Below are positions 2,781 through 15,017 of a stretch of 24,915 nucleotides of DNA, one piece after another. Made by a program: the position numbers and the translations under genes. The stretch is from Lachnospiraceae bacterium. GTDB lineage: Bacteria > Bacillota_A > Clostridia > Lachnospirales > Lachnospiraceae. How positions within the stretch are numbered: the first letter of the stretch is position 1; each line of letters starts with the position of its first letter. Under the pieces are notes generated by a model that was given only the letters and a program-made list of their open reading frames with translations, ran no database searches and was not told the DNA's origin. The stretch spans positions 1 to 24,915 of the forward strand of contig JAGAES010000054.1 in assembly GCA_017613055.1 (NCBI GenBank), given 5' to 3'.

Positions 2781-4943
2781 TCACTGTAAAGAATATAACA
2801 AGTACAGAAGCATTGCAAGCAAACCTGCGCAAAATGCCAAAAGTCCGTACGAAAGACTTCTCGTAATCAGTTTCGCGGTCTCGCTCGCATCGTCGAGTCC
2901 GCGGTTTACAATCTCGGTATAATTCTTCTGCTGCGCCACGGGCTTTCGAAGCAGCTTACTCTTAAATGCGACGAAAGCGTTGAGGAAGCCGCCGAGTGTC
3001 TTACTGATGCGCCGCGTCGCGGACAGCGTTGTCGTCTCGCAAACCGGCTTCAATGCGGTTCTCTGCGTACCGGTCACAAGAAGCTCCGGAATACGGTCAA
3101 GAAGGCCTGCAATCCGCTTGCAAAGCCCGAATACGCCGCGCGCAACTGCCGTAACAAACCGCTCTAAGATCCGGCATAACGTTCCGAGCACATTCGGAAG
3201 GAACGTAAGAAGAACCGGCCGGTACAGCATGTTCTCAAGATCCAGCTTCGCAGGGAATCGGTTCACATAAACAGGTTCGTTCTTCGGTACCCGTTTGGTG
3301 ATTGCTTTCTTCACGGCGAACTGCCAGAGAAGCAGGCCGATTATTAACGATATGGCAGCACCCTTCACATTTTCCGCGGTAAATGTGCGGAACGGTTCTT
3401 CTCCCGTGGACGAATAAGCCGTGATGATTGCACCGCGTCCCGCAAGCGGGAGCATCAGGTACTCGGGAAGCGTTCCGGCGAAGTAAATCAAAGCAGCCGG
3501 AACGGTCAGAAGAATCTTTAAGGAACGCGGCATGTAGTCCGTCTTCAGGCTGTTGAACGCTTCCACTTCCTTCGAAGGCCTCCGGAAGAACAGAATCACG
3601 AAAAGCTTCAGCATGTAAGCAATCGTGCAGCCGCCGGCAATCAGGAAGAGAATCTCCGCGATCTTATAAAACCACAGTCCGCTCTCCTCAAAGCAGAGGA
3701 CAAGCGACTCGTGAAGCATCGATTTCGAAACGAATCCCGACAGGCCGGGAATGCCCGCGATGCCGAGCGTTGCCAAAAGGAAGATAATCATGAACCACGG
3801 TCTTCCGACGCCGAAACCGCGGATTTTATTGAGGTCACGCGAATGCAGGTTCTTTACGACGACACCGGCGCAGAGAAACAGAACGAGCTTGAACAGCGAG
3901 TGGTTCCCCATATGAAGAAGCGCTCCCTGCACACCGAGCCACTGCTCACTCTCCAGTATGCACATCGTGCCTGCGCCGACGAGGATAAACCCGATCTGCG
4001 ATACGGACGAGCATGCGAGAATGTGTTTCATGTCGACGGAGAAAAGCGCGCCGACGGCACCGATCAGCATCGTACAGAGCGCGATAACCAGGATTACCTG
4101 ACCGAACCGGACATCGCCCAGGAAGACTCTTCCGGTGAGAATCAGGATGCCGTACATGCCGGCCTTCGTCAGGATTCCCGAGAGCAGTGCCGAAGCGGGT
4201 GCCGGCGCAACCGGGTGCGCTTTCGGAAGCCAGATGTGAAGCGGGAAAGCGCCCGCCTTCGCACCGAAACCGAACAGAAGGCAGAAGCCGGCGATGCGAA
4301 TCTCCTTTTGCCTAACGCCGTTTCCGCATACGTTCGCAAGTTCCCGGATGTCAAGCGTGCCGAGTGTCGTATCAAGAAGGAACAGCCCCATTAACATCAC
4401 GAGACCGCCGATTACCGCAACCGCGAGGTAGGTTTTCGAAGCCCGCACCGCTTCCTCATCCTCTTCCTGAACAACCCAGACGTACGAAGCAAGCGACATG
4501 ATTTCGAAGAACACGAAGGTTGTATACAGGTCCGCGGAAAGGAATACGCCGAGCGTCGCGCCGAGTGTTAAGAGCGTATAGAAATAATAGCGTCCGCGGT
4601 TCTCCTCGCCCTTCATGTACCAGAGCGCAAACGCCGACGAAACGGTCCATGCGAAGGCCGTCATGATGGCGTAAAGAGCGCGGAAACCGTCCACGCGGAA
4701 ATTAAATCCGCGCCCGCAGATATCCGAAACGGAGCAGACAACTGCGCCGTTTAAAAGCGCAGATACAGAGTAGAAAGCAATTCCGGCAAGCGTCACGAAA
4801 GAAAGCCCGAGAAATGTGACGTTCCCGCACGTTACAAGCTTACTCTTCTGTTTTTTCTCACCCAAAGCAACCAACCAGCGGCTCAAAAACGCGCCGAGCA
4901 TCGGAAGCAGAATCAGGATGAAAACAGCAACGGTTCCTTCCAT
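2781..4943 (-). CDS. Antiporter-like membrane subunit 4 of the Mrp/MBH-like complex, with long C-terminal extension
   Basis: Member of the MrpA/MrpD/NuoL/M/N proton-conducting family, 720 residues from the ATG at 4943. That ATG has GGAG six bases upstream; a longer reading to 4994 would overlap the preceding gene and lacks support. The proton-path residues are present: Glu147 in FFEIMS, Lys229 in GAKAGAFP, Lys260 in LTKAG, Lys352 in LFKLVLF and Lys407 in GFVSK. The signature LPKAHPVAPAPASALLSG is close to that of the second antiporter gene. The family core ends near residue 480. Beyond it lie an extra transmembrane helix, a roughly 110-residue amphipathic, basic stretch and a final helix at the C-terminus, arranged like the lateral-helix extension of NuoL/MbhH-type subunits. 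It is last in the complex operon. Confidence 0.9.
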   Translation of the reverse strand: MEGTVAVFILILLPMLGAFLSRWLVALGEKKQKSKLVTCGNVTFLGLSFVTLAGIAFYSVSALLNGAVVCSVSDICGRGFNFRVDGFRALYAIMTAFAWTVSSAFALWYMKGEENRGRYYFYTLLTLGATLGVFLSADLYTTFVFFEIMSLASYVWVVQEEDEEAVRASKTYLAVAVIGGLVMLMGLFLLDTTLGTLDIRELANVCGNGVRQKEIRIAGFCLLFGFGAKAGAFPLHIWLPKAHPVAPAPASALLSGILTKAGMYGILILTGRVFLGDVRFGQVILVIALCTMLIGAVGALFSVDMKHILACSSVSQIGFILVGAGTMCILESEQWLGVQGALLHMGNHSLFKLVLFLCAGVVVKNLHSRDLNKIRGFGVGRPWFMIIFLLATLGIAGIPGLSGFVSKSMLHESLVLCFEESGLWFYKIAEILFLIAGGCTIAYMLKLFVILFFRRPSKEVEAFNSLKTDYMPRSLKILLTVPAALIYFAGTLPEYLMLPLAGRGAIITAYSSTGEEPFRTFTAENVKGAAISLIIGLLLWQFAVKKAITKRVPKNEPVYVNRFPAKLDLENMLYRPVLLTFLPNVLGTLCRILERFVTAVARGVFGLCKRIAGLLDRIPELLVTGTQRTALKPVCETTTLSATRRISKTLGGFLNAFVAFKSKLLRKPVAQQKNYTEIVNRGLDDASETAKLITRSLSYGLLAFCAGLLAMLLYLLYSLQ

Positions 4944-4965
4944 AACAACTCCGAAAACAAGAATT

Positions 4966-6498
4966 CTATAATAATCCTGCCGCGACCTTCTCAATCATCC
5001 GGGCAAGCGGTCCCGAACATAAGCCGATTGCGGCAATCGCCAAAGCAAGAATCAGAAGCGGAACGCACATCCGGACGCCCGGTCTTTCGCCGGTATCCGT
5101 AAGCGGCACCGACTCCGACTCGTCCGAAGCGTAGCTCGGCAAGGTTTTCGCGGCATCCTCCGTAACAGTGCCCTCTTTCGTTACGGGCGTCCATGCCCGG
5201 ATTACAAGCTGCATAATGTATGCTGCCGTCAGAAAAGCGGAAATCATCACCGCGCCGAGTCCGATATACGAAAACGCGGTTCCGCTCTGCACCGCCGCCT
5301 GGGCGATGTACCATTTGCTGATGAAACCGCAGAACGGCGGAATGCCGATCAGGGCAATTCCGGCAACGGTATAGACCGACAGAATGACGGGCATCCTCCG
5401 GGCGATTCCGTCCATCTCCCACAGGTACTTGCGCCCGGTCTTCACCATGATCGCGCCGACGCAATAGAACAGCGTAATCTTCATCAGACCGTGGCACACC
5501 AGATGGAGAAGCGCTCCGGTAATTCCTGCTTCGCTCATCAGTGCCGCGGCGAAGATAATATACGAAAGGTTGCTGACCGTCGAGTACGCGAGGCGGCGCT
5601 TCACATGCTGCTCACGGACCGCCTTGACGGAGCCGTACACGATTGTGACCGCGGCAGCAGTCAGAATAATCTTCTGCGCGACCGACCCCGAAAGGAACGA
5701 CGTGCCGAAGCTGTAATAGGTAATCCTTATAATCGCGAACGCGCCGGCCTTCACGACCGCCACCGCATGCAAAAGCGCGGTAACCGGCGTCGGCGCAACC
5801 GAAGCCGTCGGAAGCCAGCCGTGCACCGGGAACAGTGCCGCCTTCACGCCGAAGCCGAACACGGCGAGCGTGTAGATCAAAAGAAGGAACGTCCCGTGCT
5901 TGGCGATTGCCTGCTCCGAAAGCACGCCGCCGTAGGTAAAATCAAGCGTATCCCCGAGCGTCAGAATCGCGATGAAGCCGAGGAAACCGAATGCCGCTCC
6001 GCCGAACGAATACTTCATGTACTTCCGGGCGGCGACGACCGATTTGTGATCGAGCTCATGCATCACGAGCGGAATCGTCACAATCGTTAAGAGCTCGTAG
6101 AACATGTACATCGTAAGCAGGTTGCCGGCAAATGCGATGCCGCACGTCACGCCGTAGGTCATTGTATAGAACGAGAAGAACGCGTTCTGTCGGCTGTGCT
6201 CCATATATTCAAACGCATAAAGAACCGCAAGCGGCCAAAGAAACGCAATCAGTCCGGAGAAAACCATGCCGCACCCGTCCAGCCGGAACCGGATTTCGAG
6301 AATGCCGGCGAGTTTCAGCGTGAGGTCCTGCTCTCCGGACGGGAACCAAAGGAGCGCACCGACCGCAGCCGAAGTCAGAAGCGTCACCGAAAAGACGAAG
6401 AGGTTTCTTCGCCGGGTGCTCTGAATCGGATGCAGCAGCATCACCGTCCCGCAGATTAACGGAACGAGGATGGGGATTAACATGACATAAGCGCTCAT
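4966..6498 (-). CDS. Antiporter-like membrane subunit 3 of the Mrp/MBH-like complex
   Basis: Polytopic protein of 510 residues in the MrpA/MrpD/NuoL/M/N family. Key residues: Glu135 (FYELLT, TM5), Lys219 (GVKAALFP, TM7), Lys250 (VVKAG, TM8), Lys340 (LMKITLFY) and Lys395 (GFISK, TM12). Its TM7-8 signature, SVAPTPVTALLHA, is of the MrpA/NuoL kind and differs from the other three paralogues in the operon. A hydrophilic segment rich in Thr, Glu and Ser (about 425-465) precedes the last helix. The start ATG overlaps the previous stop by one base (TAATG), so translation is coupled. It ends in TAG, one of several normal TAG stops in the window. It probably forms one of four cation/proton channels. 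Confidence 0.9.
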   Translation of the reverse strand: MSAYVMLIPILVPLICGTVMLLHPIQSTRRRNLFVFSVTLLTSAAVGALLWFPSGEQDLTLKLAGILEIRFRLDGCGMVFSGLIAFLWPLAVLYAFEYMEHSRQNAFFSFYTMTYGVTCGIAFAGNLLTMYMFYELLTIVTIPLVMHELDHKSVVAARKYMKYSFGGAAFGFLGFIAILTLGDTLDFTYGGVLSEQAIAKHGTFLLLIYTLAVFGFGVKAALFPVHGWLPTASVAPTPVTALLHAVAVVKAGAFAIIRITYYSFGTSFLSGSVAQKIILTAAAVTIVYGSVKAVREQHVKRRLAYSTVSNLSYIIFAAALMSEAGITGALLHLVCHGLMKITLFYCVGAIMVKTGRKYLWEMDGIARRMPVILSVYTVAGIALIGIPPFCGFISKWYIAQAAVQSGTAFSYIGLGAVMISAFLTAAYIMQLVIRAWTPVTKEGTVTEDAAKTLPSYASDESESVPLTDTGERPGVRMCVPLLILALAIAAIGLCSGPLARMIEKVAAGLL

Positions 6499-8066
6499 TA
6501 CTTCATTCCTACAAAGATGGATTCAATCACATTCCGAACCGCTTCCGTAAGCGGATTCGGGAACAGACCGAGTACAAACGCCGCAATCGAAAGGATTACA
6601 AGCGGGGTTAACAGAAAGATCCGTTTCTTTCCGGCAGACTGCTCGGAAGGTTCTTCCGCCGGTTCTTCACTCTTCTCACCGTCCGTCTCCTCTTCCTTCT
6701 CCTTACCGAAGAATGCGTCTGCGGAAACCGTAAGCAGATAGCCTGCGGTAAGCAGCGCGCTGATCAGAAGGACGACCGGTGCAAGCCACCCAAAAACAGG
6801 CATCCCGGTTTCGACCGCGCCGGTGGCGAGATACCATTTGCTGATAAAACCGCACATCGGAGGGATGCCGACAAGCGCGAGGCCCGCTACGGTGAAACAG
6901 GTCATCGTGACGGGCATCTTCCGCCCGATCCGCTTCATCTGATCCGCTCTCGTCTTTCCGGTCACGAAGATAACCGAACCGACGCTTAAGAACAGAAGGT
7001 TCTTGACAACCGAGTGGAAAACCATATGAAGAATTGCGCCGAGAAGCGTCACGTTCGAAAGCATATAGATTCCGGTCAGGCAGTAGGAAACCTGGCTGAC
7101 CGTGGAATACGCAAGGCGTTTTTTGAGCACTTTCTCGCGGTAGGCAAGCATCGAACCGAGGAACACTGTTGTCAGAGACAGCGTCAGAAGCGCGTCCGTG
7201 ACCCACGTCTCTGCAAGCGAAGCCGGGCAGATTGTGTAGTAAAGCACGCGGATTGTGAAAAGCAGTCCCATTTTCGTGATGTTGCCGGACAGAAGTGCCG
7301 AAGCGGGCGCCGGAGCGACCGGGTGCGCTTTCGGAAGCCATCCGTGCAGCGGGAACATGCCTGCCTTGCACGCAAGACCGATTAACATCAGGAATACGAC
7401 GGTAAGAAGCACCGTATTATCCTCTGCGATTGCGATATGACCGCCCGGAACATAGGCAAGGATGCCGCCCTCTCCGTCCGCTGCCGCCTCACGGCTTAAG
7501 AAGAAGATGCCGCACAGACCGAGGAACGCGCCCGCAACCGAGTAGAACAGATATGTCATGCCCGCGGACACCGCTTCCCTCGTCTGCTCGTGAAGCACAA
7601 GCGGAAACGTCACAAGCGTCATGATTTCATAGAACAGATAAGTCGTGATCAGGTTTCCGGAAAAGCATACGCCGAGCACCGCGCCGAACGAAAGCAGTGA
7701 GAAAATCTGATAGCGCATCTCATTTTTCTGATGGTCCATATAGGCAAATGAGAACCATGTCGAAAGGAGCCACATCACGGCCGTAACCGAAGCGAAAATC
7801 AGCGCGGTCCCGTCCGAACGGAAATAAACCGGAAAGCGGTCCGAAATCAGGTCAAACGCCCGGAAGGAAAGGGTATCCGAAAGGACAACCGCAAGTACCG
7901 AAAGCCCTGCTGCCAGAACAAAACAGAACGTCCCGATGCGTATTGCTTTTTTGTAGCGCGGATTCTCCTCGGAGGCGGATTCTTTCGGATAATAAAACCG
8001 CATCGCCAAGAGATTCAGCGCACCGAACGCCGGAAGCAGAACCGGCAGAAGCAAAATCCAATTCAT
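6498..8066 (-). CDS. Antiporter-like membrane subunit 2 of the Mrp/MBH-like complex
   Basis: Polytopic protein of 522 residues in the MrpD/NuoM/MbhH family. The ATG at 8066 is preferred over the in-frame GTG at 8075 because AAAGGAG lies eight bases before the ATG and abuts the GTG. Proton-path residues: Glu147 (FYEIMT), Lys234 (ACKAGMFP), Lys265 (ITKMG), Lys355 (VVKNLLF) and Lys410 (GFISK). The signature LPKAHPVAPAPASALLSG is the same as in subunit 4, and the DNA there is nearly identical (44 of 47 bases), pointing to duplication. A strongly acidic linker of about 25 residues (Glu/Asp/Lys-rich, near 455-480) precedes the last helix. The stop overlaps the next start. Confidence 0.9.
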   Translation of the reverse strand: MNWILLLPVLLPAFGALNLLAMRFYYPKESASEENPRYKKAIRIGTFCFVLAAGLSVLAVVLSDTLSFRAFDLISDRFPVYFRSDGTALIFASVTAVMWLLSTWFSFAYMDHQKNEMRYQIFSLLSFGAVLGVCFSGNLITTYLFYEIMTLVTFPLVLHEQTREAVSAGMTYLFYSVAGAFLGLCGIFFLSREAAADGEGGILAYVPGGHIAIAEDNTVLLTVVFLMLIGLACKAGMFPLHGWLPKAHPVAPAPASALLSGNITKMGLLFTIRVLYYTICPASLAETWVTDALLTLSLTTVFLGSMLAYREKVLKKRLAYSTVSQVSYCLTGIYMLSNVTLLGAILHMVFHSVVKNLLFLSVGSVIFVTGKTRADQMKRIGRKMPVTMTCFTVAGLALVGIPPMCGFISKWYLATGAVETGMPVFGWLAPVVLLISALLTAGYLLTVSADAFFGKEKEEETDGEKSEEPAEEPSEQSAGKKRIFLLTPLVILSIAAFVLGLFPNPLTEAVRNVIESIFVGMK

Positions 8067-8080
8067 CGTACGCACTCCTT

Positions 8081-9577
8081 TCAGGAAAACTGGCTGAGGC
8101 CGCGGGAAATCCAGTCGAATATCGGGTTACTGAGAATTCCGAAAACCAAAACAATCACAACGAAAACAAACATCGAAAAGCGGTAAGAAAAGCCCGTCCG
8201 GAACCCGCTGTCCCGGTACTGTTCGTTCATATCGGGCGTGTAAACGCTGATCGTCATCCGGATGAAATACATCGCGTTCAAAACGGTACTGATTGCCAGC
8301 GCAATCAACGTGACAATCTCTTTCGCGGTCGACGCGCCGAGGGCCGCCTGCGCGAAGTAAACCTTCGAGGTGAATCCGGCGAAAATCGGGATGCCTACCA
8401 TCGACAGCGAGCCGACGACAAATCCGACGCCGGCCGTCCGGTTTCTTATTCCGGAACCGCGGAGGTCACGGTAGTTCATGCTTCCGCCCGACACTTCGGA
8501 AAGGCCGTTCGCAGAAACGAAAAGCATCGATTTCGCCGAAGCGTGCGCCAGAATGTGGAATACCGAAGCGACCATTCCGGCTTCGACGCCGAGCCCGAAG
8601 CCCATATAGATGTATCCGATCTGCGCAATCGAGGAGAATGCGATCATGCGGCTGATGTCGGTCTGCTGTATCGCGTCAATCGAGCCGACCAGCATTGCCG
8701 CGATACCGAACATGAAAAGCACGTCGTCCGCGCCGGTCATTTTGAGCACGTCCGTCCCGATCACGCGGTACATGAACTTCAGCAAAAACAGAATATACCC
8801 TTTCGAAACGAGCGACGAAAGAATCGCGCTCGATGCGCAGGTGGAATAGCTGTAGGCGTCCGGAAGCCATGCGTGGAACGGAAACAGCGCCGACTTAATC
8901 GCGATACCGACAGCGAACAGACCTACGGCGATAATCAAAGGCTCGATGTGATTCTTCGATTCGACAAGCGAGACGACCGAAACGTGCATGTTCGACATCA
9001 GAAGATGTCCGGTAATTCCGTAAAGAATCGAAATCGAAACAAGAACAAGACCGGAACCGAGCAGCGACATGATCATGTATTTGGTCGCCGCGAGGATGTT
9101 CCGTCCCCAGCCGCGGATCATAATCAGTCCGCACGCAGCAATCGTATTGATTTCGACGAAGACATATCCGGTGAACATGTCATTTGTGTAAATCAGCGAA
9201 AGGAGCGACGCAAGAAGAAGGTCGATCATAATGAAATAAAGGTTCTTCTTATCGTCCGGAACGTCCTGTTTTAAGTATTTCAGTCCGCCGATTAAGGACA
9301 GTAACATAATCAGGCAGAAAAACGTCGCCATCAAAGCTTCGAGAACGCCCGCGCGGATTTCGTTTCCAAACGGCGCCGGGAAGCGTCCCATCGTATAGAC
9401 GAACGGCTCTTCGATCCGGAGCGTGTAATAAAGCGTGACGCCCGAAAGAATTCCGCAGACCGAGACAACCAGCATGCAGAGCCGTCCCGCTTTCTTTCCG
9501 GAAAGCACCGATGAAACCGGTCCCGATACCATGGCGAGCATAATGCAGATGAAAGGAAAGTTACGCACAAAGTCCAT
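8081..9577 (-). CDS. Antiporter-like membrane subunit 1 of the Mrp/MBH-like complex
   Basis: Polytopic protein of 498 residues from the ATG at 9577, which overlaps the MrpC stop by one base (TGATG). A GTG at 9580 is an alternative, since AGGAG lies five bases from it and eight from the ATG. Family residues: Glu142 (FVEINT), Lys228 (AIKSALFP), Lys259 (VSKGY), Lys349 (SAKSMLF) and Lys405 (GFTSK). The TM7-8 loop reads LPDAYSYSTCASSAILSS instead of the usual HPVAPxPxSALLSG; the AYSYA-like form recalls some archaeal MrpD/MbxH proteins. It sits directly after mrpC, the position MrpD or MbhH holds in related operons. Only a 14-base gap with its own AAAGGAG separates it from subunit 2. Confidence 0.9.
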   Translation of the reverse strand: MDFVRNFPFICIMLAMVSGPVSSVLSGKKAGRLCMLVVSVCGILSGVTLYYTLRIEEPFVYTMGRFPAPFGNEIRAGVLEALMATFFCLIMLLSLIGGLKYLKQDVPDDKKNLYFIMIDLLLASLLSLIYTNDMFTGYVFVEINTIAACGLIMIRGWGRNILAATKYMIMSLLGSGLVLVSISILYGITGHLLMSNMHVSVVSLVESKNHIEPLIIAVGLFAVGIAIKSALFPFHAWLPDAYSYSTCASSAILSSLVSKGYILFLLKFMYRVIGTDVLKMTGADDVLFMFGIAAMLVGSIDAIQQTDISRMIAFSSIAQIGYIYMGFGLGVEAGMVASVFHILAHASAKSMLFVSANGLSEVSGGSMNYRDLRGSGIRNRTAGVGFVVGSLSMVGIPIFAGFTSKVYFAQAALGASTAKEIVTLIALAISTVLNAMYFIRMTISVYTPDMNEQYRDSGFRTGFSYRFSMFVFVVIVLVFGILSNPIFDWISRGLSQFS

Positions 9578-9951
9578 CACTCATGCTCCTTTCGCACCAT
9601 GGTCGTAATCTCGTCGATATCGAGGGTGCGGTAACGCTCGTAAAGCTTCACCGTAAGGCCGAGCATCAGCGCGGAAACGCTGACGGACACGACGATACCC
9701 GTAAGGACGAGACCGCTCGGAAGCGGATTGACATATTGGGACGCATCGGTCACCCCGTCCTTAAGAATCGGCGCGAGGCGCCCTTCGATGTAGCCCATCG
9801 AAGCAAGGAACAGGTAAACCGCGGTATCCATGATATTGAGGCCGATGATCTTCTTGATCATGTTCCGCTGCAGCAGGAGGTTACAGAAACCGATGCCGAA
9901 CAGAATCATCGCGGCCACGCTGACGTAATTGTTCCACAGATAGGAAAGCAT
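9577..9951 (-). CDS. mrpC: Mrp-type antiporter subunit C (MnhC/MbhG/NuoK-like)
   Basis: Small membrane protein of 124 residues with three predicted helices, homologous to MrpC and to NuoK of complex I. In related complexes it lies next to the antiporter subunits and helps form the central hydrated path. The segment LVLTGIVVSVSVSALMLGL near the third helix is the characteristic MrpC/NuoK 'LTGIVIxxSxxA' stretch. The start is the ATG at 9951, preceded by AGGAGG and overlapping the upstream TGA as ATGA; a longer reading to 9999 would extend into the previous gene and is rejected. The C-terminal tail is hydrophilic. It is translationally coupled on both sides. Confidence 0.92.
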   Translation of the reverse strand: MLSYLWNNYVSVAAMILFGIGFCNLLLQRNMIKKIIGLNIMDTAVYLFLASMGYIEGRLAPILKDGVTDASQYVNPLPSGLVLTGIVVSVSVSALMLGLTVKLYERYRTLDIDEITTMVRKEHE

Positions 9952-10910
9952 CACAGCCCTCCTTTCCGGAACAGCGCGAAGAACGCGTACATCGTACACG
10001 CCACTTCGAAGCCGACCAGGATATTAATGGGCAGTATCAGCCCCGAGCTTAAGATTGTGCCGGCCTTTCCGAGCGGTACAACGGAAGCGATCCCATTTGC
10101 CCCTGTGAACAGATAATAGATAATCAGGAGGCTGTAAATCACGAGCGATCCGACCTTCACGATGTCGTAAATGCGCTCGTTGAAGAAACGCGCCGTCGCG
10201 GTAAATCCGAACGATGCCGAGTAAAGAATCAGGCCCGCTCCGATAATCGCACCGCCGGAGAAACCGCCGCCGGGCGAAAGATGTCCGTTCACCAGAACAT
10301 ACAGCCCGAACAGGAAGATAATCGGAACCATAAACTGCGCCATGGTCCTGAGAATCCGGTCGCCGCCGGGGTTCTCCCCGTCCATTCTTACGGGCTCTTC
10401 GTCTTTGCGTTTCTTAAGAAGAATCATGACCGCAATCGTTGCAAGGAACAGCACGTGCGTCTCGCCGAACGTATCAAAACCGCGGTACTGGAGGATGACG
10501 CCGGTGACCGTATTCACGACGCCGGTTTCCTCCTGTCCTTTTTCAATATAGCGCTCGGTCACCTCGTTGTTCATCGCGGTGTCGGCGCTTCCGAATTCGG
10601 GCATGAATGCAACGTTATAGATCAATATGCCGCAGATTCCGACGCACAGAACAAGCGCCATGACGGCGTACAGACGGCGGAACCAGCGCATTCCGGAGAA
10701 TTCCGCATAGCGCTTCGCGTCTTCCATCGGGTCGACGACCGGGGGCATCAGATAATGCTCCGTGGCGCGCTCATCCTCGGCCTTCTCTTCGGCTATCTGC
10801 TTCTGAAACTCCGGCATGTAATCCACTTCGGGAAGCTCCGTTTCGCCCATGATATAGCGGCGGAAACGGGCGCGGAAGGAGGTGTCATAATCCTTTCTGA
10901 TCCGGCTCAT
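9951..10910 (-). CDS. Fused MbhE-like / MnhB (MrpB) subunit of the Mrp/MBH-like complex
   Basis: Protein of 319 residues that joins two normally separate subunits. An N-terminal hydrophilic, charged stretch (1-75) leads to a helix (80-100). A short periplasmic part follows, then the MbhE / MrpA-C-terminal signature VTGVILQYRGFDTFGE (135-150) and a second helix (152-166). From about 180 the sequence is a full MnhB domain with HLSPGGGFSGGAIIGAG (210-226) and further helices. In archaeal MBH the two halves are MbhE and MbhF; in Bacillus Mrp they are the end of MrpA and MrpB. Start ATG at 10910 follows AAAGGAGG; the ORF open to 10967 is less likely. It overlaps the DUF4040 gene by 26 bases. Confidence 0.88.
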   Translation of the reverse strand: MSRIRKDYDTSFRARFRRYIMGETELPEVDYMPEFQKQIAEEKAEDERATEHYLMPPVVDPMEDAKRYAEFSGMRWFRRLYAVMALVLCVGICGILIYNVAFMPEFGSADTAMNNEVTERYIEKGQEETGVVNTVTGVILQYRGFDTFGETHVLFLATIAVMILLKKRKDEEPVRMDGENPGGDRILRTMAQFMVPIIFLFGLYVLVNGHLSPGGGFSGGAIIGAGLILYSASFGFTATARFFNERIYDIVKVGSLVIYSLLIIYYLFTGANGIASVVPLGKAGTILSSGLILPINILVGFEVACTMYAFFALFRKGGL

Positions 10911-11172
10911 GCTTTTCCTCCTTTCGGTCCTGCTTCGCGATGGCGTTGATGCGCCGGAGCGTCGCAAAGAACAAAACGGATGTCACGCCGGCGCCGACGG
11001 CGGCCTCGGTAATCGCGAGGTCGGGCGCCTCCAGAAACATCCAGATAACGGACATAATCAGGCTGTAGGACATGAAGATAATAATCGAAACAAGCAGATT
11101 CTTCGTGAAGCCCGCGCAGACGGCGCAAAGAATCAGAAACAATACGAGCAGTAAAAGAATGGCTTTCGTCAT
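10885..11172 (-). CDS. MbhD / DUF4040-like subunit (MrpA C-terminal-domain homologue)
   Basis: Small membrane protein of 95 residues with three predicted helices. The conserved segment APDLAITEAAVGAGVTS (49-65) is the hallmark of MbhD/DUF4040, equivalent to a piece of the MrpA C-terminal region and related to NuoJ. In MBH and Mrp complexes this unit sits between the antiporter subunits and the small subunits and helps form the ion path; the conserved acidic residues of APDLAITEA are thought to be functional. It begins in an ATGA overlap with mrpG and ends inside the fused E/B gene, a gene order identical to mbhC-mbhD-mbhE. Confidence 0.9.
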   Translation of the reverse strand: MTKAILLLLVLFLILCAVCAGFTKNLLVSIIIFMSYSLIMSVIWMFLEAPDLAITEAAVGAGVTSVLFFATLRRINAIAKQDRKEEKHEPDQKGL

Positions 11173-11516
11173 GGCTTCTCTTCTTCCTTTCCGTCCCCGT
11201 CGCTCACCTCGCAGTTGTCCCGAAGCCGCGGGGAAACCGTTACTTCAAGATTCGCAAGAAGATGCGACGCTACAGGGCTTGCGCACCAAAGCAGCAGAAT
11301 AATCAAAAACAGTTTTAAAGAATCGAAATTCAGCCCGGACAGAACAATCAGCCCGGACAATACTAGAAGTATCGCAAGCGTGTCGCACATCGCGGCGGCA
11401 TGCATGCGGTTCAGCGCAAAGCGGAATTTAAATAATCCGAAAGCGGCGATTACGGCGGCAAGAAGCCCGCAGAGAATCAGGAACGCGGCGCATCCGAACA
11501 GAATCCAGTCACTCAT
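11169..11516 (-). CDS. mrpG: Mrp-type antiporter subunit G (MnhG/MbhC)
   Basis: Small membrane protein of 115 residues with three hydrophobic segments and the MnhG pattern: an N-terminal helix, FGLFKFRFALNRMHAAAMCDTLAILLVLSG in the middle (the 'RMHA' and 'DTLG/A' elements are typical), then a third helix and a hydrophilic, acidic tail. A subunit of the Mrp/MBH membrane arm, needed for assembly or activity of the antiporter in characterised systems. ATG at 11516 has GAGGAGG upstream. It overlaps mrpF by eight bases and the MbhD-like gene by four, giving strict coupling. Confidence 0.93.
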   Translation of the reverse strand: MSDWILFGCAAFLILCGLLAAVIAAFGLFKFRFALNRMHAAAMCDTLAILLVLSGLIVLSGLNFDSLKLFLIILLLWCASPVASHLLANLEVTVSPRLRDNCEVSDGDGKEEEKP

Positions 11517-11823
11517 GGCGTTCCTCCTCTTTCTTCAGCATTCTCTCGTGATATACGCCGAGATAGATGCGGGTCAGTATGACAACGGCGAGGAAGGAAA
11601 TCATCGCATAGATAATCGCGACATCCAGAAGATACCCCTGCTTAAGCCACAGGGAAAGGATGCAGATAATCATGATCGTCAGCGTTCCGAGCATGTTGAC
11701 TGCCACGATGCGGTCCACAATCTCCGGTCCCTTCACGGCGCGGATCAGGACGCAGAGCATAATCAGAACGAGCACGCCGATTGCTCCGCCGTACAGTATG
11801 TTGTAAGCCTGCGACAGACTCAT
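11509..11823 (-). CDS. mrpF: Mrp-type antiporter subunit F (MnhF/MbhB)
   Basis: Membrane protein of 104 residues with three predicted helices. The central RAVKGPEIVDRIVAVNMLGT is the MnhF signature, in which GPxxxDRxxAxN is the most conserved part. The final helix is followed by a short charged tail. Structural subunit of the Mrp/MBH membrane arm. Its ATG overlaps the mrpE stop as ATGA and has GGAGG seven bases upstream. Length and arrangement are those expected of the family. Confidence 0.94.
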   Translation of the reverse strand: MSLSQAYNILYGGAIGVLVLIMLCVLIRAVKGPEIVDRIVAVNMLGTLTIMIICILSLWLKQGYLLDVAIIYAMISFLAVVILTRIYLGVYHERMLKKEEERHE

Positions 11824-12287
11824 TCCGCTTCCTCCAGTTCCTGAATCATCTGAACGAATACCGACTGATCGATTCCTTCCGCAAACTCGCGGTCCAATGC
11901 ATGCACGGTGAACCAGTCATCCTCGGAGAGGTCCACGGTAATCGTTCCGGGCGTTAACGTAATGGAATTCGCGAGGAGAACCTCATGGGAATTCTTTTTG
12001 AACGGCCTGTGAAACCGGACCAGGATCGGTTCGGGTTCCAGCCGGTCCGAAAGAATCAGTTTCGTAACCGCAACGTTCGCCTTCACGATCTCCCAAAGAA
12101 GGATTCCGAAATATTTTATAAGCCACGGAAGATTCCGGATGAAATCCCACTCCCGCTTCGGCGTAAAATGCATCACAAGGCAGAAAAAAAGATAAACGGG
12201 CACCGCAAGGACAAGTCCCGTGAGGAACACTTCCCAGGTGATGCGCCCGTTTAAAATCATCCACAAAACCAAAAACAGAATAATCAT
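11820..12287 (-). CDS. mrpE: Mrp-type antiporter subunit E (MnhE/MbhA)
   Basis: First gene of the membrane-complex operon, 155 residues. Two N-terminal helices (about 1-18 and 21-40) are followed by a cytosolic domain containing the MnhE elements LANSITLTPGTITVDL and the later FTVHALD. MrpE is a structural subunit of Mrp antiporters and of the MBH sodium-translocating module. The ribosome binding site is modest (AGGCGG). A strong promoter lies 40-65 bases upstream. The order E-F-G first is that of MBH-type clusters, unlike Bacillus mrpABCDEFG. Confidence 0.94.
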   Translation of the reverse strand: MIILFLVLWMILNGRITWEVFLTGLVLAVPVYLFFCLVMHFTPKREWDFIRNLPWLIKYFGILLWEIVKANVAVTKLILSDRLEPEPILVRFHRPFKKNSHEVLLANSITLTPGTITVDLSEDDWFTVHALDREFAEGIDQSVFVQMIQELEEAE

Positions 12288-12325: not shown

Positions 12326-12354
12326 ATTATATCACATTTTACGTTGAAAGTCAA
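12326..12354 (-). promoter_or_regulatory. Sigma-A promoter of the mrp-like operon
   Basis: On the minus strand TTGACT (12349-12354) and TATAAT (12326-12331) are separated by exactly 17 bases, with TG one base before the -10 (extended -10). This is close to a perfect vegetative promoter. Predicted start is about 12319, giving a leader of roughly 30 bases before mrpE. The -35 box overlaps the T-tract of the terminator of the preceding gene. Confidence 0.85.
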
Positions 12355-12386
12355 AAAAACTGTCGGCCGGAAAACCCGGCCGACAG
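12353..12386 (-). terminator. Rho-independent terminator of the zinc-ribbon gene
   Basis: Perfect 11-bp stem CTGTCGGCCGG (12360-12370 read on plus) with CCGGCCGACAG (12376-12386) and a five-base loop, followed on the minus strand by seven Ts. It lies about 30 bases after the zinc-ribbon stop codon and isolates that gene from the mrp-like operon. Confidence 0.93.
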
Positions 12387-12417
12387 CAGATTTTTAACGA
12401 ATTGTCTGATCGGAAGC

Positions 12418-13461: not shown

Positions 13462-13490
13462 ATTATACATCATTCAGCTACGCATTTCAA
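13462..13490 (-). promoter_or_regulatory. Sigma-A promoter of the zinc-ribbon gene
   Basis: Minus-strand TTGAAA (13485-13490), 17 bases, TATAAT (13462-13467). The -35 lies inside the last codons of the clpX-like gene. A second TATAAT at 13455-13460 sits seven bases further on. Predicted start is near 13455, giving a leader of about 35 bases. Confidence 0.75.
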
Positions 13491-14907
13491 TCACCGGAGC
13501 ACCATTTCCGCGAATATAATCGGCGGTTATGGTCACGGCCCCGATATAAGAGTCCTTCGGAATCTCATACATGATGTCAAGCATGAACTCCTCGAGGACG
13601 GAACGGAGCGCACGCGCACCCGTTTCCTTTTTAAGTGCCTTCTCGGCAATCAGGTCGAGCGCATCATCGGAAAATGTGAGCTTCACCTCGTCCATTGCAA
13701 ACAGCTTCTGGTACTGCTTGATGATTGCGTTCTTCGGCTCCGAAAGGATTCGCTTCATCGCTTCCTTATCAAGTCCCCTGAGCGCGAAAATCATCGGCAG
13801 ACGTCCGATGAATTCGGGAATCATGCCGTACTCGCGAAGGTCTTCCATCGTCGTCTTCGAAAGCAGGTCCGGGTCCTCGTCGTATTGGTTCTTAAGGTTC
13901 GAATTGAAGCCCATCGTGAACGACTTGGTCAGCCGGTTCTTCACGATTTCGTCAAGTCCCGGGAAAGCGCCGCCGCAGATAAACAGGATGTTCCGCGTGT
14001 TGACGGTCGTTGTCGGCACCATGCCGTTCTTGCTTGATGCCCCGACGGGTACCTCGACTTCGGCGCCCTCAAGCAGCTTCAGGAGCCCCTACTGCACGCT
14101 CTCGCCGCTCACGTCGCGGCTCGTCGTATTCTTTTTCTTAGCGATTTTATCAATCTCATCAATGAAGACGATGCCCTGCTCGGCTCGTTCCACATCGTTG
14201 TCGGCATTCGCAAGCAGTTTCGAAAGCACGCTTTCGACGTCGTCGCCGATGTATCCGGCTTCCGTAAGCGAAGTCGCGTCGGTAATTGCAAGCGGCACAT
14301 TCAGAAGTTTTGCAAGCGTCTGCACCAGATACGTCTTTCCGCAGCCTGTCGGTCCGATCATCAGCATGTTCGACTTCTCGATGATTACGTCATCCTTAAA
14401 GGCCTCTTCGTCCTGACGCTTTACTCTTTTATAATGGTTGTAAACGGCAACGCTGATAACCTTCTTCGCGTAATCCTGCCCGATGACGTATTCGTCCAGT
14501 CTTGCTTTAATCTCGTGCGGGGACGGAAGGCTCTTGATGTCCATCACGTCGCCCGGATCGGCTTCCGTCTTCTCCGGTTCCTTTTTCTTCGGCTTCAGCT
14601 TCGTCTGGTTCTGCATCTGCCCGGGAAATATGAAACGAAGATTCAAAAACGGATTCCCGCTGCCCTGCTCTTCTTCCCTGCCTTCCGCGGGTTCCTTTTC
14701 GTCCGTTCCTTCGGGCTTATCCTTAGCGGCAGGCCCGCCCGGACGCATCGTCATCGCCATCAGATCGAATGACTTCTGCAGGCAGTCTTTACATAAACAG
14801 ATATTCGGAGGCATCTTAAGAAGCGTTCCGCAGACGCTTTCCGGGCGATGGCACATGGCACATACGCTCTCGTAGCCGTCCTTTCTGTCTTCGTTCTTCT
14901 CATCCAT
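13474..14907 (-). pseudogene. clpX: ClpX-like AAA+ unfoldase, interrupted by an in-frame TAG at codon 273
   Basis: Read through the TAG, this is a 477-codon ClpX family member, the ATPase that unfolds substrates for ClpP. A zinc-binding domain (Cys16-x2-Cys19-x19-Cys39-x2-Cys42) and a linker of about 75 residues lead to [13 protein letters not shown] (133-145), Walker A GPTGCGKT (185-192), pore loop GYIG (218-221) and Walker B IVFIDE (246-251). The amber codon (14089-14091) stands where the family has the second Gln of VQQ. Past it the same frame continues with LLKLLEG, LFICGGAF, LREYGMIPEFIGRLP and the sensor-2 region KKETGARALRS. Start ATG 14907 follows GGGGAGGAG. The RKH pore loop is not recognisable. 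The 272-residue product of an uninterrupted stop would lack sensor 2 and be inactive. clpP and tig are not adjacent, so this may be a paralogue. Confidence 0.85.
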
Positions 14908-14922
14908 GAAACTTCTCTCCTC

Positions 14923-14942
14923 CCCATTTCCTCGGAAATGGG
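14923..14942. promoter_or_regulatory. Leader hairpin next to the clpX-like ribosome binding site
   Basis: CCCATTTCC and GGAAATGGG form a nine-base inverted repeat separated by two bases (an eight-bp stem with a four-base loop is more realistic). It lies between the predicted start of transcription (about 14947) and the GGAGGAG Shine-Dalgarno, which directly follows it on the minus strand. It could stabilise the 5' end of the mRNA or modulate initiation. It does not match CIRCE or the CtsR box. Confidence 0.45.
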
Positions 14943-14953
14943 TATACAAAGAT

Positions 14954-14982
14954 ATTTTAACGCATTCTTGAAGCGATTGCAA
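14954..14982 (-). promoter_or_regulatory. Sigma-A promoter of the clpX-like gene
   Basis: Minus-strand TTGCAA (14977-14982), 17 bases, TAAAAT (14954-14959): four of six and five of six matches to consensus with ideal spacing. The predicted start is about 14947, roughly 40 bases before the ATG. Confidence 0.7.
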
Positions 14983-15017
14983 GACGGATTTCCGCACAGA
15001 AACGACAATTCTTCATT

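Follow-up and report, generated by a model that had tools for sequence, protein, structure and literature searches.

The Mrp antiporters (CPA3) of groups 1 and 2, such as those of B. pseudofirmus, A. flavithermus and Dietzia, bring homologues of MrpE, F, G, C and B together with two antiporter-like subunits (APLS) and no redox subunits, and their MrpA ends in a NuoJ-like C-terminal domain; Mrp is characterised by electrogenic exchange of Na+ (or K+) for H+. Those of group 3 have three antiporter-type subunits, including a duplicated MrpD-type gene, in irregular orders such as mrpFGBCDDAE in Microbacterium and mrpCD1D2EFGAB in Aphanothece; the accessible part of PMC5703873 does not name MbhD or MbhE genes there, and it ascribes to anaerobes markedly different mrp clusters, the named forms of which have at most three antiporter-type subunits. 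The hydrogenase MBH (mbhA-N) joins small subunits of the MbhD/MbhE type to one APLS and a NiFe-hydrogenase-type module, and a complex I with four APLS has been reported (Chadwick 2018, as cited in the available portion of PMC7419157). Here we describe an operon from a 24,915-nucleotide stretch of Lachnospiraceae DNA (contig JAGAES010000054.1, positions 1 to 24,915; hereafter the window), which encodes Mrp-type small subunits followed by four APLS, p1 to p4 in gene order, and whose product is probably a redox-free exchanger of cations for H+ that has a larger proton arm than usual.

The operon comprises ten co-directional genes (12287-2781, minus strand), encoding MrpE, MrpF, MrpG, MbhD, an MbhE+MnhB fusion, MrpC and p1 to p4 (Table 1). 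This composition and order had been proposed in an earlier sequence-only reading and is borne out by Pfam, since all ten proteins match the expected families above the curated cut-offs, with Proton_antipo_M (PF00361) found in four of them (E-values 1e-46 to 1e-60). The AlphaFold2 model of p4 (pLDDT 88.6) contains a helix at residues 569-629 and has MrpA (7qru_A) as its best Foldseek match; among the best 120 database matches of p4, the names given are sodium:proton antiporter, complex I subunit 5 family and proton-conducting transporter, the others being unnamed. Unlike Mrp of groups 1 and 2, the operon has four APLS instead of two, and a separate MbhD and MbhE, the latter fused to MnhB, in place of the MrpA C-terminal domain. 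It differs from group 3 in gene order and in having four such subunits rather than three. The order of the small subunits matches that of MBH (PMC7419157, in the part available), as the sequence-only reading had said, whereas the NiFe large and small subunits and the NuoH-like MbhM of MBH were not found linked here. The four-APLS complex I of the S. meliloti pSymA nuo locus has the same number of APLS, but it comes with Nuo redox genes and a NuoM with Glu in transmembrane helix (TM) 12, while the window operon has no linked NuoH or Q-module and Lys in all four TM12 positions. In the literature searched, which did not extend to subscription papers, we found no Mrp described as having four APLS and no redox subunits, and we regard the operon as a variant of the known Mrp family, the known forms of which mostly have two APLS, not met in that literature.

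The nearest relative identified is a Lachnospiraceae metagenome-assembled genome, Lachnoclostridium sp. UBA1241 (G001), the sole match of a scan of genome contigs (74% identity in p4). It has the same ten-gene operon and the same folD-rimO-pgsA neighbours as the window, and its four PF00361 matches all lie inside the operon. In a survey of 397 genomes of its family, in which every place matching MbhE (PF20501) was read, MbhE is found in 92 genomes at 95 places. Four intact APLS are present at 73 of these loci and five at one (L083); two loci are frame-broken (L061 and L112), nine are cut by a contig end, one has three APLS (L102) and nine have a single APLS. The intact, five-APLS, frame-broken and cut loci together make 85 loci, one per genome, which we term cluster loci; they occur in about one fifth of the sampled family (85/397), and the arrangement is not a matter of chance because 85 of the 95 MbhE-positive loci repeat it. 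The genes flanking the operon mostly vary between genomes. In three of the 73 complete loci (L069, L095 and L071) MrpE, F and G are absent ahead of the fusion gene, as is MbhD in the first two, and the respective genomes (G040, G356 and G135) each carry a single MNHE gene on a different contig, so that the operon seems to be split there. In L083 (genome G300) the second APLS is doubled again, giving five in one operon, with p2 and p3 65.5% identical.

Beyond the family, MbhE occurs in 42 of 341 genomes of the class, at 49 places, of which 40 were newly read, three were already in the set and six were left out. Three APLS without a redox gene by profiles are found at 16 of the 40 (the first APLS of L135 being split over two frames), and four APLS at five, with MbhE and MnhB separate in L133 and L136 and fused in L140, L148 and L157. 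Another five have two APLS plus linked redox genes, four have one APLS plus redox genes, seven have one APLS without recognised redox genes, and three are cut. In the phylum, where MbhE is present in 95 of 299 genomes, 20 places picked among the shorter frames were read. Three APLS occur at 13 of them, four at L179 and L175 (the last APLS of L175 being cut) and two at three places; L187 and L191 are rearranged loci. Judged by sequence, the closest kin that we found is the three-APLS Mrp of Clostridia (the 16 class loci and a Peptoclostridium plasmid) and not MBH. These loci share with the window the order of the small subunits, Asn at position 35 of MrpF (see below) and, in most, orthologous first and last APLS; they differ in having one middle subunit instead of two and an unfused MbhE, the open frame of which is 91-160 residues long.

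Every APLS of the window keeps the four key residues Glu of TM5 (E5), Lys of TM7 (K7), Lys of TM8 (K8) and Lys of TM12 (K12), as the sequence-only reading had stated. All four are conserved in the APLS of Mrp, and the TM12 Lys is shared with the Mrp references from Niallia and Dinoroseobacter, in contrast to the Glu at this position in E. coli NuoM, HyfB and HyfF. In an alignment of 74 four-APLS loci (the 73 of the family sample and the window), E5 is present in 74/74 at each of p1 to p4, and K7 and K12 are each present in 74, 74, 74 and 73 proteins of p1, p2, p3 and p4, so that none of the three falls below 73 of 74; the corresponding numbers for K8 are 73, 74, 63 and 73. Invariance of E5, K7 and K12 in the duplicated p2 and p3 over a wide divergence is as expected if each of the two moves protons.

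No redox subunit is present among the genes of the window operon or their Pfam matches. At the loci with at least four APLS, profiles of the NuoH, NuoB, NuoD, 30 kDa and ferredoxin types matched nothing in the stretches read, save two weak ferredoxin-profile matches in L078; the downstream part of these stretches had a median of 6.5 kb and a minimum of 4 bases. Linked redox genes are found at eight of the nine one-APLS family loci, and one of these one-APLS loci, L120, which served as positive control, matches PF00346/PF00374, PF00146, PF01058, ferredoxin and 30 kDa proteins in Pfam. The arm might instead be a redox pump, docking on or working in association with a module that is encoded at another site and is of the Ech/MBH hydrogenase, formate dehydrogenase, Nuo-like or Rnf type, a possibility kept in view by the nine of 40 class loci in which arms with one or two APLS carry linked NuoH/NuoD-type genes. 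PF00146, the heel subunit that complex-I-like redox enzymes have in their membrane part, is found in 57 of the 397 family genomes, namely in 8 of the 85 with a cluster locus versus 49 of the 312 others (odds ratio 0.56, Fisher p 0.16), without enrichment. It belongs to a separate MBH-type locus in G212, G299 and G300, and lies on a different contig from the operon in G011, G151, G314, G332 and G367. In genome-wide searches it was not found in the other 77 cluster genomes, nor in G001, and it is implausible that a redox module was overlooked in 77 of 85 genomes, even if drafts miss genes.

Rnf (PF03116) is encoded somewhere in 77 of the 85 genomes with a cluster locus and is about as frequent in those without one (absent from 8/85 versus 32/312 others, p 1.0); the operon is therefore independent of it. 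Neither Rnf nor PF00146 was found in G001, G174 and G190, which the trees place nearest to the window. In phmmer searches no rnf genes were found beside the four-APLS family loci, the only matches in the family set being ferredoxin-type proteins of four one-APLS loci, and the sole rnf-related match in the class set is an apbE behind L148. The sequence-only reading had offered two alternatives, a stand-alone secondary antiporter and coupling to a redox module elsewhere. The first is supported by the linked profiles and by the PF00146 and PF00361 counts; for the second, hydrogenase or Nuo coupling was set aside, as neither linked profiles nor genome-wide PF00146 support it, and so was a link to Rnf, which shows no association across the family and is missing from the genomes closest to the window.

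Two trees of the APLS were built (FastTree, 413 rows; IQ-TREE with the C20 model, 122 rows), and both place p1 beside the first subunit of the three-APLS Mrp of Clostridia and p4 beside its last. Both also show p2 and p3 as two clades that are sisters (SH-aLRT 100 in IQ-TREE); the group enclosing them (support 99) contains most middle subunits of three-APLS loci, together with an antiporter subunit from the nuo locus of S. meliloti pSymA. In the FastTree analysis the middle subunits of L141, L145 and L165 fall in the last-subunit group. By BLAST the window p2 is 37% identical to p3 and 36% to p4. The trees thus give good support to an origin of the extra subunit as a duplicate of the middle-type subunit. 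This duplication may have followed the split from the three-APLS forms, but approximately unbiased (AU) tests reject neither p2 (p 0.215) nor p3 (p 0.197) joined to the four nearest three-APLS p2 rows; they do reject p2 joined to six rows, a wider grouping (p 0.0002). In the class loci L133 and L136 the third subunit forms a long branch of its own, which IQ-TREE puts next to the middle-subunit group (93) and FastTree next to p1 (0.83), and a separate gain appears the likelier origin of their extra subunit.

The composition, the key proton residues, the lack of linked hydrogenase or Nuo genes, the lack of a heel subunit in most cluster genomes and the middle-group origin of the extra subunit argue, at the level of sequence, for a cation/H+ antiporter of the Mrp family that works without a redox module and has a proton arm enlarged to four subunits, and we consider this reading likely. 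MrpE, F, G, MbhD, MbhE/MnhB and MrpC would form the cation-handling end, which p1, encoded beside MrpC, would face as MrpD does; p2 and p3 would stand within the row as a duplicated middle-type subunit, and p4 would be the distal MrpA-N/NuoL-like subunit, with its lateral helix running back along the arm. Assembly into one arm, the order of its subunits and antiport are all steps that we infer. The coupling ratio would then exceed the value put forward for Mrp with two APLS, 2 H+ per cation: four chained APLS could move up to about four H+ per cation, corresponding to an equilibrium cation gradient of up to four times the proton-motive force. At such a ratio a small proton-motive force could hold a steep cation gradient, or cation influx could expel several protons. 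More tentatively, and less likely than not, the loci of Clostridia may form a series of gears, in which the same small-subunit module is combined with three, four or five APLS without a hydrogenase or Nuo module. Each added channel would then add about one H+ (four here), the series would have arisen more than once by duplication of channel subunits, and Asn at MrpF-35 would be the mark of a changed cation path.

How Mrp, MBH and complex I work is a matter of debate. If the antiporter reading is true, a redox-free exchanger with two extra channels, together with its three- and five-APLS relatives, would permit a test of ratio versus channel number without electron transfer, and a likely role would be given to an operon present in 85 of 397 sampled family genomes.

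Several observations weigh against this reading, beginning with the cation path. MrpF D29, MrpC T75, MrpG P86 and MrpE P114 are kept in the window and nearly always in the aligned loci, and the Asp and Glu of MbhE are seen in the window by eye; the position of MrpA E706 holds Gly, a Glu lying four residues before it, and the same is seen at nearly all loci that encode MbhD separately. According to PMC7419157, MrpF D35 is invariably conserved and matters for activity; it is replaced by Asn in all 107 loci with three or four APLS (or cut), and the His pair of MrpC (H37 and H40) is mostly Thr/Ser and Tyr/Phe, being changed in the window too; in both features the window operon departs from Mrp of groups 1 and 2. 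Asn is also found at MrpF-35 in six of the seven one-APLS class loci without redox genes, and Ser in L102 and L124. Asp is kept in 12 of the 13 other one-APLS loci (L124 being the thirteenth), in all six two-APLS loci of the redox type (one cut), in both Rhizobium plasmid loci and in the Niallia reference. In the sampled Clostridia, Asn at this position accompanies arms without a linked redox module and marks a subfamily, and the cation transported could be one other than Na+.

In addition, five or six PF00361 matches are found in 14 of the 75 cluster genomes searched, the other 61 having exactly four; seven of the 14 lack PF00146 (G040, G115, G168, G197, G206, G356 and G375, of which G206 has frame breaks). 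In five of the 20 phylum loci (L183, L184, L185, L190 and L194) the genes of a two- or three-APLS Mrp arm come after RnfA/E/B-type genes and before apbE (by Pfam in L190 and phmmer in all five); kin of the four-APLS machine may thus work with Rnf, as a possible Rnf-Mrp unit in these loci. The C-terminal length behind K12 has a median of 298 residues in four-APLS and 272 in three-APLS loci (p 0.003, uncorrected for kinship and with three three-APLS loci of another type left out), and it is 237 in single-APLS loci; this length is therefore no simple tracker of subunit number, and helix length as a ruler of that number was dropped as weak. Asn replaces K8 in 11 of 74 p3 proteins, although the window p3 keeps it. 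Finally, the activity, stoichiometry and assembly of the complex are predictions.

The loss of K8 from some p3 proteins would suit a ratio no higher than the ordinary one, about 2 H+ for each cation, with the extra APLS collecting protons or serving stability or regulation. According to PMC9568556 the H+/cation ratio has not been measured even for Mrp, and PMC7419157 relates that the size of Mrp has been explained by the need for a large proton-gathering surface; the invariance of E5, K7 and K12 in p2 and p3 speaks against idle channels, and we hold an ordinary ratio to be on the unlikely side. Somewhat less probable is the same machine run in reverse, in which a primary Na+ pump would sustain an influx of cations that drives several H+ out per cation and deacidifies the cell. 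An OAD_beta sodium-pump family protein, without Rnf, is present in each of the three genomes in which OAD_beta was sought (G001, G174 and G190), which would fit such a mode, but the cluster and Rnf are independent across the family and direction cannot be read from sequence. A redox pump is improbable: the eight cluster genomes with PF00146, the widespread Rnf and the five rnf-linked arms of the phylum favour it, and they are set against 77 genomes without the heel subunit, a four-APLS family sample without adjacent rnf genes, and a nearest relative (G001) with neither PF00146, Rnf nor any PF00361 protein outside the operon.

Of G001, G174 and G190, all three have ATP-synt_C proteins, a membrane pyrophosphatase is found only in G001, and the OAD_beta gene lies about 20-30 kb from the Mrp operon on the same contig in G001 (contig C29) and G174 (contig C13). 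A separate type of arm is seen in the class loci L147, L151, L153, L159 and L160, where genes of the NuoH and NuoB types stand behind a two-APLS Mrp arm. Except in L159, which is cut, they are accompanied by 30 kDa- and NuoD-like genes and a ferredoxin/pyridine-nucleotide oxidoreductase of 607-630 residues (Pfam on L147). Both K7 and K8 are lost from the first APLS in all five, and the type looks like a ferredoxin:NAD(P) redox pump.

The coordinates of the window features are given in Table 1.

Table 1. Positions of the Mrp-type operon, its upstream signals and two other genes in the window
Feature	Positions	Strand	Evidence and remarks
Terminator-like hairpin	12359..12387	-	13 pairs + T-run, behind upstream zinc-ribbon gene
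Promoter-like site	12326..12354	-	TTGACT-17-TATAAT, TG ahead of second hexamer; 38 bases before mrpE; 11/12 consensus matches
MrpE, 155 aa	11820..12287	-	Pfam MNHE 1.4e-31
MrpF, 104 aa	11509..11823	-	Pfam MrpF_PhaF 2.6e-14; D29 kept, D35 to Asn
MrpG, 115 aa	11169..11516	-	Pfam PhaG_MnhG_YufB 6e-19
MbhD, 95 aa	10885..11172	-	Pfam MbhD 1.6e-20; Glu position as in single-APLS MBH-type loci
MbhE+MnhB fusion, ~319 aa	9951..10910	-	MnhB 1.1e-21 and MbhE 4.5e-8 in one protein; from Met codon at 10910
MrpC / NuoK-like, 124 aa	9577..9951	-	Pfam Oxidored_q2 2.9e-23; from 9951
p1, APLS, 499 aa	8081..9580	-	PF00361 1.4e-46; groups with p1 of three-APLS Mrp
p2, APLS, 525 aa	6498..8075	-	PF00361 1.6e-52; one product of middle-type subunit duplication
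p3, APLS, 510 aa	4966..6498	-	PF00361 3.9e-54; other product of that duplication
p4, APLS, 720 aa	2781..4943	-	PF00361 1.1e-60; MrpA-N/NuoL-like, long C-terminal helix
ClpX-like AAA+ gene	13474-14997	-	AAA_2, ClpB_D2-small; two open frames, 14997-14089 and 14022-13474
Diadenylate cyclase CdaA	21525-22394	-	DAC, CdaA_N

Given corrected starts, the genes of the operon overlap or are separated by gaps within about 25 bases. The start of p4 is probably at 4943, because a 99%-identical database protein has 720 residues; that of the fusion protein is probably the one tabulated, in an open frame extending to 10967, and that of MrpC, in a longer frame to 9999, is probably at 9951, many relatives having 123-127 residues. 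With the hairpin and the promoter-like site directly upstream, the ten genes look like a transcription unit of their own, although both signals are matches to a consensus and the scanned stretch has 8 sites like the promoter-like one, against 5.9 in shuffles. An Rfam scan of the whole window gave no family at its gathering score. Downstream, folD lies 24 bases beyond the operon.

In other surveyed loci, antiporter-type genes flank the small subunits on both sides in L191 (716, 499, 536, 717 and 729 residues), and a sigma-54-type activator-like gene (about 660-676 residues, named by eye) lies directly upstream of the three- or four-APLS operons of L133-L135, L138, L139 and L154. The Rhizobium plasmid loci (L129 and L131) have an MbhD/MbhE-type Mrp with one antiporter subunit of 1030-1039 residues. 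Within the window, the ClpX-like gene was named by eye, and its split frame reflects a frame break or an assembly error; the CdaA gene is located about 9 kb from the Mrp operon.

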